Shown: positions 12,762 through 34,066 of the stretch, in pieces | Layout: the number at the start of each line of letters is the position of its first letter | Numbering within the stretch: position 1 is the first letter of the stretch | Source of the DNA: Verrucomicrobiota bacterium | Lineage (GTDB): Bacteria; Verrucomicrobiota; Verrucomicrobiia; Chthoniobacterales; UBA10450 | Direction of reading: 5' to 3' | DNA: 42,873 nt | Assembly: GCA_003218395.1 (NCBI GenBank) | Contig: QHNJ01000137.1 | Coordinates: 1-42,873, forward strand | Translations under genes and position numbers: made by a program | Notes under the pieces: generated by a model | Told to the model about the DNA's origin: nothing | The model's database searches: none | The model's input: only the letters and a program-made list of their open reading frames with translations

Positions 12762-13247
12762 TTATCGCATCGCTGTTTCCCAGGCCATGAAGTCATCCAG
12801 GGTTTGCCGGGTTCTCGCGGCCGCAAACTCGATAACGGTCGCGTCATCCACAAAGCCGAGAAACGGGGTTTTGTCTGGAATCAAATCGAATGGGTCGACC
12901 AAATAACTGAGAGCTGCAACGATCCACAAGAGCGCGTCGCTCGAAACCTGATCGTATTCGCCGCGATGGTACGCGCGGATTAACCGCAACATCGTTTGGA
13001 GATAGGACCAGTTGTCTTGGAACGGCTCCCTGGGGACTGCCGCTGCCTTTCTCGCCGCCTCGTTGAAAAGCGCTTGTAAACTTTCGGGATTGTTGACACA
13101 CGATTTCGCATTGATTAGCGCCCGGGCAAACGCATCGCTACGAAGGGCAGGTTTCTGATACGGGATGCGCTGCTCAAGATTCTTCGAAGCCGACCGCCCC
13201 CGTGTCGTTCTCCGCGATTTCGTTTTGACCTTTTTCGCCTTTTTCAT
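12762..13247 (-). CDS. YkvA/DUF1232 family protein with basic N-terminus
   Basis: DALLWIVAALSYLVDPFDLIPDKTPFLGFVDDATVI; N-terminal MKKAKKVKTKSRRTTRGRSASK. Confidence 0.85.
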   Translation of the reverse strand: MKKAKKVKTKSRRTTRGRSASKNLEQRIPYQKPALRSDAFARALINAKSCVNNPESLQALFNEAARKAAAVPREPFQDNWSYLQTMLRLIRAYHRGEYDQVSSDALLWIVAALSYLVDPFDLIPDKTPFLGFVDDATVIEFAAARTRQTLDDFMAWETAMR

Positions 13248-13320: not shown

Positions 13321-14346
13321 CTAAGGTTTTGTCGCGAAAATCAACGGTGATGGTCCGGGCGCTTGGAGTTTGCGTACTTTTTTGAAGCCAGCTTCTTCAA
13401 GCCAGCGTTTGATTTCGCTAAAGCTGAACGTATCGCCCCGTTCGCTGTGGACCAGCATGTTCACGGCAAAGATCAATCCATTCAACGGTCCCGTGCGATC
13501 GTCATTCACCAGCCATTCGGCAATTGCGATAATTCCACCGGATTTAAGCGCCCGAAAAGTTTTCGCGAGCAACTTTCGGCTACGCTCTTCGCCTTCGGTA
13601 TGAAGAATGTGACCCAGCGTGGCGATGTCGTACCCATTGCCAAAATCGGCTTCGAGCACGTCGCCTTCGATGTAGGAGAAGCGATCAGCCACGCCGAATT
13701 TCTGCGTGATGCGCTTGGTAGTCGGAATCATTTCCGGCCAATCCTGCGCCGTCACGCGTATAAGAGGCGATTGTTGCGCGAGCGCAATTCCCCAAATGCC
13801 AGAGCCGGCGGCGACATCGAGCACGCGAACAGCGTCGCGTTTCTTCGCAAGACGGAGCGCCTGCCCTAGCGCGGTGGCCGCCGGATAACTCATCGGGATA
13901 ATGTGCTCGACGAGGACCGAAAAAAATTGCGGCCCGTGCGCCTGCAGATTAAGCGCAACTGGCGGTGCGCTGGTTTTTACCGCTTCACCCAAGTGCAGCC
14001 AATCAGGAATGTGATGGCTCTTCACCATGGCGAAAAGTCCAGCGAGGCTGCCCGGCTTGTCGGTTACGAGAAAGTTTTCGCTTTCGGGCGTGAGCGAATA
14101 TTTTCCCTGTCGGTCCTTTTTTAAGAGTTCGAGGCCAACCAGCGCATTCATGATTGCCCGGAGTCCTCGCTCGGATGCGCCGGTTTTGTTTTTGACTTGC
14201 TGGACTGTTTTCGAACCGTTTTGAAGCGAATCGAAGACTTTGTTGGTCGCTGCGGCTCCGATGATGAGCGGCGGCGTGTAAGCGGAGGCAAATTGCATCA
14301 GGCGCTCGGGAGTGACTTGTTTTTTCTTGGAAGTTTTCCTTGGCAT
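13321..14346 (-). CDS. SAM-dependent O-methyltransferase with winged-helix dimerisation domain
   Basis: Dimerisation/HTH region GAAATNKVFDSLQNGSKTVQQVKNKTGASERGLRAIMNALVGLELL; VLDVAAGSGIWGIALAQ. ORF extends to 14382; MPRKTSKKK start preferred. Confidence 0.82.
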   Translation of the reverse strand: MPRKTSKKKQVTPERLMQFASAYTPPLIIGAAATNKVFDSLQNGSKTVQQVKNKTGASERGLRAIMNALVGLELLKKDRQGKYSLTPESENFLVTDKPGSLAGLFAMVKSHHIPDWLHLGEAVKTSAPPVALNLQAHGPQFFSVLVEHIIPMSYPAATALGQALRLAKKRDAVRVLDVAAGSGIWGIALAQQSPLIRVTAQDWPEMIPTTKRITQKFGVADRFSYIEGDVLEADFGNGYDIATLGHILHTEGEERSRKLLAKTFRALKSGGIIAIAEWLVNDDRTGPLNGLIFAVNMLVHSERGDTFSFSEIKRWLEEAGFKKVRKLQAPGPSPLIFATKP

Positions 14347-14516
14347 TTTTGATTTGGCTTTTTGGATCGTAAGATCGATCAATAACGAGCGTGGCGGCGC
14401 TGGTAAATCAGTTAACTGTGTCGAACAATTCTAACAAAAGGACGTGGCGCACGACATCGTTCATTATTCATGCAACACGCGGTGTGATTCGAGATCAAAC
14501 GCTCAGGCGCAACATT

Positions 14517-14768
14517 ATGTTTATTTTGCTTCTCGCCGCGCTGACCCTCCTGTTTTCTGGCACAACATTTTTGCAAACAACGCTTAATCCGCGCGAGCGC
14601 CCAATCTGGTTTATTCTGTTTTGGATCGTTTGCGGATGGTTAACCGTGACGGCGCTGTTCCTGGCGATCTTCGATTTGCTGGTCGTCACACTCCAATCGC
14701 GCAGAGCGCAACGGTCGCTGCGGGAGAATCTGAAAACGAAGTCGCCAAAATCGACAATTAACGAATGA
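14517..14768 (+). CDS. Small hypothetical membrane protein
   Basis: MFILLLAALTLLFSGTTFLQTTLNPRERPIWFILFWIVCGWLTVTALFLAIFDLLVVTLQSRRAQ: two TM helices; ORF extends upstream to 14391. Confidence 0.5.
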   Translation: MFILLLAALTLLFSGTTFLQTTLNPRERPIWFILFWIVCGWLTVTALFLAIFDLLVVTLQSRRAQRSLRENLKTKSPKSTINE

Positions 14769-14775
14769 TCGGGGC

Positions 14776-16104
14776 GTGAAAATGGCGACAACCAGGCAGC
14801 GATCGTCTGAGCCGCGCTTCCGATCGGTCGCCGGTCGCCATGGCGGCGTTCGGCCCGGCGAACATAGAGACGGCTACAAGTCGCGCGAGGAAATGGAAGC
14901 GACGGAGCGCGCCACGATTGCGCCGTTTGCCCAGAGATCTGGCGATTCGCGCGGCCGAAAATATCCAGAGCCCAGCCATGCGTATCGCACAGAATTTCAA
15001 CGAGATCGCGCACGCATCATTCATTCGCGGGCCTTTCGCAGGCTCGAGTACAAAACGCAGGTCTTCCTGAATGGGACCGGTGACCATTTGCGCACCCGGT
15101 TGACTCATTCGATCGAGGTGGCCTCCATCAGCCGCACAATCGCGCGTGCATTGGGACTGAACGAAGACCTCGCGGAAGCAATTGCACTCGCCCATGACCT
15201 GGGCCATTCGCCTTTTGGCCACTCCGGAGAAGAGATGCTCGCCGAATGTATGCGCGCTCACGGTGGGTTCGATCACAACCGCCAGAGCTTGCGGGTCGTG
15301 GAGCTCCTCGAAAATCCGTATCCAAAGTTTCCGGGTTTGAACCTGACATTTGAAGTACTGGAAGGTTTGCGAAAACATCGAGCCTTTTATGAGATGCCGA
15401 AAGTGGCGCGACCCGCCTTGGGCGGGTTGCAAGGTGAAGAAGGCAAGCTCACTACGGGGCGAATCCGTGTCGCCGCGGCGACCGGACCAGAGGTTCACTC
15501 CGCTTTAGAGAAGTATCATTGTCCATCATTGGAGGCGCAGATCGCAGATCTCGCGGACGAGATCACTTATTACAGTCATGATCTGGATGATGCGGTCGAT
15601 TTTGAAATTTTAAGCGCGGAGCGATTGGAAGAAAACGAAGTCTGGCGTCACAGCCGTCGCGCCGTGCTGGCACGTTATCCTGACGCGCGCGAACCTGAGC
15701 TGCACAGGTTGATCATTCGCGACATTATCGATGTGCAAGTGCGCGATGTGATAACAACAAGCGCGCAATCGATTGCTGATGCTGGTGTGCAAAGTGCGGA
15801 TTCAGTCCGCGTACAGCCGGCACCGCTCATTTGCTACAGTGACGATCTGTTACAAGCAAATCGCGCCCTGCGGAAGTTTCTATATGAGAATGTTTACTAT
15901 CACCCACGCGTTGCCGGTGTGAACCGGCGCGCGTGCGAGATGCTGAGAAAAGTCTTCGAAACATACCTTCTCGATCCTGACCGACTCGGCGACACAGCAA
16001 CAAAACGAATTGAGGTAGAAGGGCTGCATCGCACTGTATGTGACTACATTGCGGGAATGACCGATCGCTATTTGATGGAAGAATATGCGCGCATCGCCCT
16101 GTAG
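14776..16104 (+). CDS. dgt: Deoxyguanosinetriphosphate triphosphohydrolase-like protein (HD domain)
   Basis: FQRDRARIIHSRAFRRLEYKTQVFLNGTGDHLRTRLTHSIEVASISRTIARALGLNEDLAEAIALAHDLGHSPFGHSGEE. Confidence 0.93.
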   Translation: MKMATTRQRSSEPRFRSVAGRHGGVRPGEHRDGYKSREEMEATERATIAPFAQRSGDSRGRKYPEPSHAYRTEFQRDRARIIHSRAFRRLEYKTQVFLNGTGDHLRTRLTHSIEVASISRTIARALGLNEDLAEAIALAHDLGHSPFGHSGEEMLAECMRAHGGFDHNRQSLRVVELLENPYPKFPGLNLTFEVLEGLRKHRAFYEMPKVARPALGGLQGEEGKLTTGRIRVAAATGPEVHSALEKYHCPSLEAQIADLADEITYYSHDLDDAVDFEILSAERLEENEVWRHSRRAVLARYPDAREPELHRLIIRDIIDVQVRDVITTSAQSIADAGVQSADSVRVQPAPLICYSDDLLQANRALRKFLYENVYYHPRVAGVNRRACEMLRKVFETYLLDPDRLGDTATKRIEVEGLHRTVCDYIAGMTDRYLMEEYARIAL

Positions 16105-16149
16105 CGCCTCGCTGCGCGGGGGCGGCGCCGATGAGTTCGAGACAGGCAC

Positions 16150-16174
16150 GCCGCGCGTCTCACAGACACGTGGC
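16150..16174. repeat. Palindrome with 11-bp arms and 3-nt loop between convergent genes
   Basis: GCCGCGCGTCT-CAC-AGACACGTGGC; one mismatch and one wobble. Confidence 0.6.
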
Positions 16175-16179
16175 GACAG

Positions 16180-21405: not shown

Positions 21406-21571
21406 TGCTATTTTGAAAAGGCCCACGGCCTGGGATCATTTTGTGAATGTGGCGCTGCCCAGTACCCGTGCGATCGATCCGCAATCACAACAATGGTCCG
21501 CAAAGAAGATTCCGCTGTTCATTCTTTTCGATCAGTTCCTGTCACTGCAAAAACGAACCGGGTCACCCTTT

Positions 21572-21805
21572 AAAAATATTTCAAAAAAGTGAAAGAAAAG
21601 CTTGCAAGCCTTCTGCACCTTCCATTAAACGGGAATCTGGCGCGCCAAATAGGCCGCGTCAGCCGTTCAAAAATATCTTAAAAAAAGTGAAAAAAAAGCT
21701 TGCAAGCCCTTTGCATTTTCCGTTAATCGGGAGTCTGGCGCGACAAATAAGCCGCGTCAGCCGTTCAAAAATATTTTAAAAAAAGTGAAAAAAAGCTTGC
21801 AAGCC
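21572..21805 (+). repeat. Tandem repeat, about 2.4 copies of a 97/98-bp unit, upstream of the TonB-dependent receptor
   Basis: aaaaatat[t/c]t.aaaaaa.gtgaaa.aaaagcttgcaagcc...ggcgcg.caaata.gccgcgtcagccgttc starts at 21572, 21669 and 21767; the third copy stops after agcttgcaagcc. Confidence 0.92.
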
Positions 21806-21859
21806 GTCAAAATATCCAATAATCCGTGCCAAAACCTAACCAAACCAATGGAGAAACCA

Positions 21860-30018: not shown

Positions 30019-30038
30019 CGGCGGCTTAGAAACCGCCG
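30019..30038. repeat. Palindrome CGGCGG-cttagaaa-CCGCCG at the end of the RAYT remnant
   Basis: Perfect 6-bp arms; overlaps the 3' end (...HSRSGGF*) of the minus-strand TMTC-like ORF. Confidence 0.75.
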
Positions 30039-30812
30039 CTCCTTGAATGCTCGTGATACGGCAGGCCGAGCTCGTAGAGCGCAATTTCATCCCGAAGGGC
30101 GTTGGCCAGGCCGGATTTGCCCTCCGTGCCTGCGATGCGCAGAGCTTGCTCGGCTGCTGCAACGGCCTGGGCAAACCGGCCGCCCTCAGCGCGAGCAGCC
30201 GCGAGAGTCCGGAGATAAGTGGGATCTTTGCCGCCGGAAAGTTGCACGGCCTGTTCGGCGAGCTCGATTGCCCGATTCCCATCGCGAATTGAAGCATCGG
30301 AGGAGGTCGCGAGGAGCCACGCCAAATTGTTCCGAGCCAGCGAGTCTTGCTGGGAGATCCGTGCCGCATGCTCGTACTCGGCGATTGCATCTTTCTGTAG
30401 TCCGCTTTTAAGAAACGCGTTACCCAAAACAGTGTGGAAGCCTGAGTCGTTCGGCAGAGTCGGAAGCGCCTTCTGCCATTGCGCGATCGCTTCGCCGATC
30501 CGGCCCTGCTGAAATAGAACGCTGCCAAGGTTGAAATACGCGTCGCCATAATCAGGCCGCAGTTTCGCCGCTTTCTCGTAATGGCCGATCGCTTCACCCA
30601 GCAGACCTTTTCGGGCGAGGGCGTTGGCAAGATTAGTCTCGATGAGCGCCCCGCCAAGGTTGTAATGGGCGGAAGTGTTGCCGGATCGAATCTTCAACGC
30701 CGTCTCGAAGTGCGAAATCGCCCTGTCCAATTCGCCCCGTCGCAGGAAAAGATAGCCGAGATTGTTATGCGCCGTGTCGTTGTCAGGGGTAGGCGCAGAA
30801 TTGCTTGTAGCC

Positions 30813-30878
30813 ACGGCCCTGTGGGCCGTTTGTTCGGACTCCGCGTGATCCACGAGTGACCGACCGCAGGCCGGTTGC
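30813..30878. repeat. Two adjacent hairpins with 3-nt loops inside the broken TMTC-like gene
   Basis: ACGGCCC-TGT-GGGCCGT (30813-30829) and GTGACCGACC-GCA-GGCCGGTTGC (30856-30878; one mismatch, two wobbles). Confidence 0.7.
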
Positions 30879-31434
30879 GACAGGGCGCGAGCCGGAGTTG
30901 CGCATCATTATGGGCGCCATCAGATCCGTGATGCCCCAAACAATCAGCACATACAAACCGATCTGTGGCAGGTAAGTGTATCGATCCGCGCGCGCTTGCT
31001 CGCCGACCTGCACCAAGCCGATCACGGGCACGAGCATCCCGACATACCAAAACCAGCCGGTGAAAATGTAAGGCCGTTCTTTCCTCCAATGGATTGCCCA
31101 CAGGCTGACTGCGATGAGAAATGCAATTGCCAAAAGAACCTGCCAGGGCGGCAGTTGATCGTTGGGGTGAGGATAAAAAGCCGCCAGCCGCGCGGGCCAG
31201 AACATCTGCCAAATGTAGGCAACATAACTGATAACCGCGTTGTTCAGTCGCCACATAAAGGGCAACTGTTCAATCGCGCCGGCGCTCTGATTTTGTACCA
31301 GCAATGTCGCCACACACGAAATCGCGGACAAGGCGAACAATGGAATCTTCTCCACGATCAGCTTGAAGATCCGACCACGGACCACGGACCCCGCGCCGTC
31401 GCCGTAACCTCTTTGGCGCGCCGAAGGCTCGCGA

Positions 31435-31483
31435 CTGACTCCTGATCTCTGATTTCTGACGTCTGACGTCTGACGTCTGACTC
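31435..31483. repeat. Heptanucleotide tandem array, 7 units
   Basis: CTGACTC CTGATCT CTGATTT CTGACGT CTGACGT CTGACGT CTGACTC; period exactly 7, CTGA invariant. Confidence 0.9.
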
Positions 31484-32122
31484 TATTGACCGGCCAGTAA
31501 TCGAGGAGCAAAAGCACGAATGGAAGCGTCACCAGCATCGGTTTGGACATGAGGATGAAAAATACGGCGCTGAGCACGTCTTTTCGCTCGGAGACCCAGG
31601 CGACCGATTCCACGTGCAATGGATGAATAGCGAACAGCGATGCCACGAAGGCACTTTGCCAAATACTGCCAGTCCGGCTCGGACCGCCGGTCATCTGCCT
31701 GAGCACGAAAAAGAGCAACACGACGGCGACCGAGTGCAGCAAGACATTGGTGAAGTGATGTCCGCCAGCCTTCAGCCCGTACAACTGGCAGTCGAGCATG
31801 TGCGAAATCGTCGTGAGCGGATGCCAGTTTCGCGCATGAGCATGGGTAAATGCGCCGATTACGCCATCCACCGAAAGTCCTCTGGTGATGGAGGGGTTTT
31901 CATACACATACACATGATCGTCGACATCGACGAAATCGTGTCCGAGAGTTTGTCCAAAAACTAGCCAAGTAATCGCGATGAGGGCGAGGCAAACATAGAA
32001 AGACGCGAATCTCGAGGAGGAGCGCTTTTTTAACCGACTGTTGAAAAACTCGGGCGTGTTCTTCTTACTCCTGCTCCCGCTCTTACTCATCCGTTTGAGA
32101 ATTCCTCATGAAAGCGTTTTCG

Positions 32123-34066
32123 TCACGGTGACGAACTGCCATTTGCGAGACTTGGATCGCGCAGCGGTCTTCCGGCCTGGTAAAGAGCGATATTGCTCTG
32201 GAGCTCGTCCGCTAGGCCAGGGTTGCCCTGGTGATTGGCTAATTCAATGCCGCGCTGCGCAGTTTCAATTGCCTGTGTGAAAAGGCCGCTCTCGGCATAG
32301 GCAGCTGCCAATATGCGGAAAATCATTGGGATCTTCTCGCCCGACAAACGCAGCGCCTTTTCGGCCAGTTCAACGGCTTGGGGGCCATTTCGAATTGAGT
32401 CTTCCGGACACGTTGCGAAGACCCATGCCAGATTACTGGCAGCATTTCCGTTTTCGGGCTGAATTGCCAGCGTTTCCTGCCATTGCTCGATCGCTTCTCT
32501 TACACGGCCCTGCTGGATAAGAACAGTGCCCACAATATTACGTGCCTCCACGTTCTCGGGCTGAATTTCCAGCAACTTGCGATAATGAATCATCGCATCA
32601 GCTACTTGTCCCTTTTGAAGAAAAGCCTTGGCAAGATTGTCGTGGGCAGGCGCGTTTTCGGGCCGAAGATTCACGGCTGCCTGGAGTAGAGAAATCGATT
32701 CGTCCAATTTGCCTTTTCGAAGGAGAACGATGCCAAGATTATTTTCGGCAACGTCGTTGTTCGAGGTTACTGCAAGTGCGTGAGTGAACAGCGTTTCACT
32801 ATTGCGCCAAAAGGTTGTCTGAATCCACCCGCGCCAACTTAATACGCCAATGATTATCGCGGCACTGGCACCCAAAATTTCGCGTTGATGACGCCATGAA
32901 GCCGACCAATCGGCGACAGTCCAAGTGCCCATGATATAAAGGCCTATCTGCGGCAGGTAAGTGTATCGATCGGCCCGCCCTTGCCATCCGACTTGCACCA
33001 AACCAATCACCGGCACAAGCATCCCCAGGTACCAAAGCCAGCCAGTGATGACGTAGGGCCGTTTTTTCCGCACAGCAAACGCCGCTGCACTAATCGCAAT
33101 CAAAGCCGCGAGCGCGAGGATGATCCCCCAGGCCGGCAGGCGATTTTCTGGATGAGAATAAAAAACCGCGAGTTTCACTGGCCAGAGCATTTGCCAAATG
33201 TAGGCAACATAGGTCACTAATGCGTTGGTCGCCCGCGATGAAATCGGAAGTTGCTCGGTCCAACCAAGCGCATGTCGTTGGGCGAGAAATGTAACGATGC
33301 CTGAGACGGCGGACAGCCCAACCAGTGGAATCTTCTCTAGAATCAGCTGTCCCGCGACTGATTGTCGATCCCACAAGCGAAGTGGCGGAGGTTTTAGTTT
33401 GACTTCGGCTTTCGGTGCAAATCGTTGGAACGGCCAGTAATCCAGAAGCAAAAGTACGAAGGGGAGCGTCACCAGCATCGACTTGGACATTAGACCAGCG
33501 GTGAACGGTAACGCTACGGTGAGATAGCGCCGAATTGAGGGCGCACGCACGTGATGAACATATGCGAGCAGGGTCAGCATGAAGAAAACGCCGCTCAGCA
33601 CATCCTTGCGTTCTGCCACCCATGCCACGGATTCCACGTGCAACGGATGAATCGCGAACAGGGTCGCAACAAAAGCGCTTCGCAAAAGTGCGCCCGTCAT
33701 TTGTTTGAAAACGAGAAAGAGCAAGACCACGGAAATTGTATGGAGAAGCACATTGGTAAAATGATGTCCTCCCGCCCTCAGCCCATATAACTGGCAGTCC
33801 AGCATGTGCGAAATCGTTGTAAGCGGATGCCAGTTCTCCGAGTGGATATGTGTGAATGCCCAGCCAATAGCGGCGATGCTGAGACCGCTGGTTATCTTGG
33901 TATTTTCATAGACGTAGCGCGGATCGTCGTAGTTGACGAAGTCATGGCCGAGAGTTTGGCCAAAAACAATCCAGGTAAGTGCCGCCAGAAAGATGCAGAC
34001 GCTGATGCTTACCCAGCGGCGGTTCGCTTTGGAGGAAGCTATCGATCGGATACTGAGGGCGTGCAC
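32123..34066 (-). CDS. TMTC-like GT-C glycosyltransferase with C-terminal TPRs (paralog B1, intact)
   Basis: DFVNYDDPRYVYENTKITSGLS, NWHPLTTISHMLDCQLYGL, HPLHVESVAWVAERKDVLSGVFFMLTLLAYVHHVRAPS, RADRYTYLPQIGLY, WRNSETLFTHAL, TPRs. Confidence 0.85.
   Translation of the reverse strand: MHALSIRSIASSKANRRWVSISVCIFLAALTWIVFGQTLGHDFVNYDDPRYVYENTKITSGLSIAAIGWAFTHIHSENWHPLTTISHMLDCQLYGLRAGGHHFTNVLLHTISVVLLFLVFKQMTGALLRSAFVATLFAIHPLHVESVAWVAERKDVLSGVFFMLTLLAYVHHVRAPSIRRYLTVALPFTAGLMSKSMLVTLPFVLLLLDYWPFQRFAPKAEVKLKPPPLRLWDRQSVAGQLILEKIPLVGLSAVSGIVTFLAQRHALGWTEQLPISSRATNALVTYVAYIWQMLWPVKLAVFYSHPENRLPAWGIILALAALIAISAAAFAVRKKRPYVITGWLWYLGMLVPVIGLVQVGWQGRADRYTYLPQIGLYIMGTWTVADWSASWRHQREILGASAAIIIGVLSWRGWIQTTFWRNSETLFTHALAVTSNNDVAENNLGIVLLRKGKLDESISLLQAAVNLRPENAPAHDNLAKAFLQKGQVADAMIHYRKLLEIQPENVEARNIVGTVLIQQGRVREAIEQWQETLAIQPENGNAASNLAWVFATCPEDSIRNGPQAVELAEKALRLSGEKIPMIFRILAAAYAESGLFTQAIETAQRGIELANHQGNPGLADELQSNIALYQAGRPLRDPSLANGSSSP

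Follow-up and report, generated by a model that had tools for sequence, protein, structure and literature searches.

REP palindromes of the GTAG type are known in the Planctomycetes-Verrucomicrobia-Chlamydiae group, where they are often paired and also occur inside genes (PMC3733652). Intragenic GTAG copies were most numerous in the verrucomicrobium Opitutus terrae (Di Nocera et al. 2013, PMC3733652); of the intragenic inserts, more than half consist of dimers or groups that encode 20-30 residues, and in the recB gene of Xanthomonas different REPs are found at about the same site (PMC3733652). As described by Bertels and Rainey (2011, PMC3116915), REP doublets are mobile units that can also be excised, and an association between RAYT and REP sequences has been reported (PMC2817692).

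The window analysed here, meaning the whole stretch of 42,873 nucleotides, is all of contig C135 of a metagenome-assembled genome (MAG) of 2.95 Mb in 335 contigs, 88% complete. It contains a TMTC-like gene, B2, with a broken reading frame beside two palindromes. Very probably, its history comprises an old in-frame insertion of a REPIN into the gene and a later, separate deletion of 101 bp.

The host gene and its REP units

B2 (30026..32090, minus strand) consists of a membrane part and TPR repeats and was delimited by the ORF list and by uninterrupted orthologs. The last residues of its ORF1 (minus strand, 30783-32090; 435 aa) are those quoted by the preliminary description and, as also stated there, the TPR part continues in another frame, in the ORF 30026-30853 (minus strand). 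A Pfam search gave no match in ORF1; the TPR repeats are clear. The adjoining paralog B1 (32123..34066, minus strand) is an intact 647-aa ORF with the short linker usual for the family, presenting TPR domains and a PMT_2 match at 22.2 bits, under the cut-off of 26.1. In B2, CTGACGT and GACCACG units also form short tandem repeats within an in-frame loop at 31375-31490; the loop was considered as a second mobile element and rejected, as no other genome copy was found at E < 0.5, and it is kept as a fast-changing loop. In the ortholog of G012, the region matching this loop is immediately preceded by an assembly gap.

Regarding the palindromes, both of those named in the preliminary description are present, the hairpin ACGGCCC-TGT-GGGCCGT at 30813-30829 and an imperfect one at 30859-30875. 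An inverted-repeat finder with default seeds detected nothing in the hairpin stretch, and the folding of the whole 83 nt as a single strand is unremarkable (z -1.3), indicating that the signal is family membership and not fold energy. The genome search suggested in that description gave a divided answer, as the full 146-bp segment is single copy and only its 24-nt cores recur, belonging to a REP family that is indeed dispersed. Repeat membership was therefore assessed with a covariance model, R1, built from 13 aligned REP units from the rest of the genome, with the window copy excluded.

The best of the 86 genome-wide R1 matches is the B2 unit with the GTAG head at 30805..30833 on the plus strand (TTGTAGCCACGGCCCTGTGGGCCGTTTGT; 38 bits, E 7.1e-7), which within the window alone reaches 38.1 bits and E 9.9e-9 with the same model trained without it, values far in excess of chance. 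The inverted partner, at 30855..30883 on the minus strand (CTGTCGCAACCGGCCTGCGGTCGGTCACT), is decayed: over the whole window and both strands it has 11.9 bits and E 0.15, or about 5e-5 by arithmetic if restricted to one orientation and ~30 doublet-compatible positions, these E-values being rough to a factor of five. Together they form a REP doublet (REPIN/BIME) at 30805..30883, with no strand assigned, which accounts for the greater part of the in-frame linker insert (31 aa) shared by the orthologous clade according to linker lengths and the ortholog alignment. Its span of 79 bp, with the second unit weak, agrees with the other inverted pairs of the genome, about a dozen in number and 56-85 bp long. 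Moreover, at 30805-30829 it shows the end typical of the GTAG superfamily, TTGTAGCC followed by the first hairpin. Members of this superfamily are mainly extragenic and the B2 copy is inside a gene, which does not exclude its membership, because intragenic copies are a recorded minority (PMC3733652). As far as its sequence tells, the B2 segment is an old in-frame GTAG-REP doublet (REPIN), the relic of a mobile repeat.

The family is well represented elsewhere, with approximately 30 R1 matches at E < 0.003 in the own genome and 37-80 matches per genome at E <= 0.01 in six relatives. The partial genome matches share the layout of TGTAGCC plus a hairpin, mostly with an inverted partner. In the window, another REP doublet (16099-16179; 19.9 and 20.0 bits) sits in the usual extragenic position, in the gap that separates convergent genes with their ends at 16104 and 16180. 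Also in the window, three direct repeats with a period of ~95 bp, 86-88% alike, occupy 21558-21808, just upstream of a 1109-aa TonB-receptor-like ORF at 21785. Eight Y1_Tnp matches were found in the genome, and one Y1 transposase gene (L193, G000:C4:13304-13651, minus strand; 115 aa, possibly truncated) is flanked on both sides by REP matches (12881-12910, 13946-13974 and 14481-14559), making it a possible candidate RAYT/REPtron.

The linker in orthologs and the deletions in B2

Searching related genomes at the DNA level yielded orthologs of B2 in six congeneric species, five of them with the hairpin segment. It lies at the same place in G012, G016, G029, G001, G015 and AV134, with the TM helix and the W(K/R)NSE motif directly after it. 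The ortholog frames are uninterrupted in G012 (738 aa, including a run of N), G016 (714 aa), G029 (708 aa) and G001 (715 aa), as is that of AV134 (L119), found later, with an open frame of 735 aa; the G015 ortholog has a 1-nt insertion, located elsewhere in the gene. The segment is thus native, in-frame linker sequence in several intact orthologs, which is the very finding that the preliminary description gave as refuting its own proposal. The preliminary description had it replacing the linker and TM segment, which does not agree with these genes, as they possess both the segment and the TM helix after it, and what the window is without is exactly 101 bp past the segment.

The distance between DRYTYLP..GLY and W.NSE is exactly 42 aa in 37 family matches, 38-44 in a few and 72-79 only in the B2 clade, counted over the loci collected, some of them in duplicate. 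The additional stretch in G012 amounts to 31 residues, GSRSVATSLQPITRGSRGVRTDGPQSRGYKP, and 93 of the 108 aligned bases of the segment match between this genome and the window. The insert has a pairwise omega of 0.9-1.8, compared to 0.14-0.24 in the upstream membrane flank, and its lengths are all whole codons (35, 36, 36, 41, 42 and 46), the pattern, judging by these alignments, of a linker free from constraint within a gene whose frame is maintained. Concerning the palindromes themselves, R1 still recovers the main REP unit in G012 at 34.2 bits and weak remains at the same place in G016 and G029 (10.0 and 10.1 bits, respectively), and it finds no clear REP left in the G001 and G015 orthologs. 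Given this last result and the low score of the inverted partner in the window, a REP origin of the insert for the clade as a whole depends in part on the position and length that the orthologs have in common, and the linker may already have been longer when the REP arrived in the lineage of G000, the genome of the window, and G012.

The 101-bp deletion has its junction at 30791..30792 on the minus strand, where CTGCGCC meets TACCCCTGA on the gene strand, leaving 20 nt in the window against 121 in every ortholog. It begins 12 bp past the doublet segment and takes the last TM helix along with the W(K/R)NSE motif; the resulting frameshift leads to a TGA stop at 30785-30783. The frame of B2 is thus broken by this separate deletion and not by the REP segment. 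Programmed frameshifting was considered and discarded, since 101 bp of a conserved membrane segment are gone and not merely the frame. A second deletion, of 84 bp, in frame and exclusive to the window, was placed by the indel table and the codon alignment at an approximate junction of 31550..31557 (minus strand), removing 28 aa after AVFFI[L]. The TPR half of the window, compared with G016 and AV134, has an omega of 0.23-0.25, with no relaxed selection beyond noise in these comparisons, which suggests that the break is recent or else an assembly error. Considering also the second deletion, further upstream, this copy of B2 looks like a young pseudogene. Among the orthologs, L066 (G017:C409) has a different loss of 98 nt, comprising nearly the whole REP insert and shifting the frame.

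The miaA site and the proposed order of events

A second in-frame site was noted in miaA (PF01715, 248 bits), where locus L196 (G000:C139:5849-5932) contains REP matches in frame; it was compared with loci L197-L219 and L224-L226. The same 84-bp doublet type is present in six members of the genus, including the own genome, and a 54-bp doublet with different stems occupies the same position in seven others. One genus member has three units at this site, and in G020 the REPIN seems to have been partly lost by deletion. Outside the genus, a member of the sister genus carries the first type and another member of the family a third one, and the site is empty in one family member and in the more distant members of the order that were examined. 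These REPINs support the idea that this lineage tolerates in-frame REP doublets and passes them on.

For B2, the proposed history would start long ago with the in-frame insertion of a GTAG-type REP doublet into the loop ahead of the last TM helix, in an ancestor of several species of a soil Verrucomicrobia genus; the enzyme that copied the doublet would presumably be a RAYT/IS200-type tyrosine transposase (Y1/HUH). This loop would tolerate extra residues, allowing the insert to survive as an unconstrained linker of ~31-42 residues, with its palindromes decaying to different degrees among the descendants. Much later, and in this species or strain only, the 101-bp deletion would have occurred 12 bp past the doublet, with loss of the last TM helix and a shift of the frame; together with the 84-bp deletion, it would have turned B2 into a young pseudogene.

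The preliminary description offered another explanation, a recent palindromic insertion that took the place of the linker and TM segment and disrupted the frame. Its proposal of a REP/BIME-like element in coding sequence is supported by the R1 matches and the linker length, and the segment truly belongs to a dispersed palindromic repeat family and adjoins the break; nevertheless, a recent event is extremely improbable, because the segment is in frame in the intact orthologs of other species, G012 having the same 93 of 108 bases, and the break is a deletion outside it. It is also quite improbable that the linker is ordinary Arg/Gly/Pro-rich coding sequence resembling a REP by chance convergence. 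The lack of a REP in the distant orthologs of G001 and G015 would fit such convergence, as would the 'GYK' codons that happen to yield GGCTACAAG, but a genome-wide score of 38 bits (E 7e-7) from a model blind to the window unit, an inverted partner at the usual spacing of the family and an extra length specific to the clade all speak against it.

The reading of an old in-frame REPIN would persist if the break were an assembly or binning artefact of the MAG, the real gene being intact with its REPIN linker. An artefact of this kind is conceivable in a MAG fragmented into 335 contigs, in a gene with a TPR half free of relaxed selection (the same omega of 0.23-0.25 against G016 and AV134) and with an N gap in its G012 counterpart; however, a collapsed assembly would less typically leave one gene with two clean and independent deletions, of 101 and 84 bp, the first of them with no repeat to be seen at its junction, and the adjoining B1 is intact, leaving the artefact as the somewhat unlikely case. 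In addition, a REPIN might promote deletions nearby, by hairpin slippage or imprecise excision by the transposase, intragenic REPINs then being fragile sites. The start of the window deletion 12 bp from the doublet, the independent, frameshifting 98-nt loss of the insert in G017, the seemingly truncated REPIN in miaA of G020 and the REPIN excision reported in Pseudomonas fluorescens (PMC3116915) are consistent with that view, which is still doubtful, since there are only two such lesions in seven orthologs and the 84-bp deletion of the window is far from any REP. A causal link from the palindromes to the two nearby deletions is thus only suggested.

It may tentatively be proposed, as a possibility of rather low probability, that in this lineage in-frame protein linkers have repeatedly arisen from REP doublets, that at miaA doublets of unrelated stems take each other's place between species, as if exchanged on the spot and not inserted afresh, and that the same elements could seed gene-breaking deletions as in B2. 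With its filled, differently filled and empty relatives, the miaA site would make it possible to measure directly how old intragenic REPINs are, how they are replaced and whether they may be targeted.

Comparison with known systems

What seemed to be a gene-breaking insertion would become a series of ordered events, in which the gene took up a mobile palindrome in frame long ago, the resulting linker drifted neutrally and the gene was lost later. A broken frame is, then, not necessarily caused by a palindrome lying next to it. With this case, uncultured soil Verrucomicrobia related to Ca. Udaeobacter join the short list of lineages with protein segments derived from repeats.

Among the known systems, E. 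coli REP/BIME also have alternating inverted palindromic units with a GTAG head, but differ in the stem, and their units rarely overlap protein-coding regions (PMC12306157). Rickettsia palindromic elements (RPE) are likewise palindromes kept in frame within proteins; however, the likeness to this type, one of two suggested in the preliminary description, does not suit B2, as RPE-4 and RPE-6 belong to the CGTC superfamily and to another phylum (PMC3733652), and the B2 element is GTAG-tagged, the relatives being soil Verrucomicrobia MAGs. With REPINs it shares the inverted REP doublet of fixed span as a unit and the many pairs in the genome, but REPINs were defined in extragenic space (PMC3116915), and the B2 copy is intragenic and degenerate. 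Its counterparts are the intragenic GTAG REPs of O. terrae (PMC3733652), which are also GTAG palindromes, mostly doublets, in frame and thought to be neutral in loops or linkers. Unlike those cases, the host lineage is one of uncultured soil Verrucomicrobia, the host genes are a TMTC-like gene and miaA, and the B2 copy is decayed, common to several species and older than the adjoining break. The B2 REPIN is, then, of a kind already described in O. terrae genes, to which it adds a modest new example.
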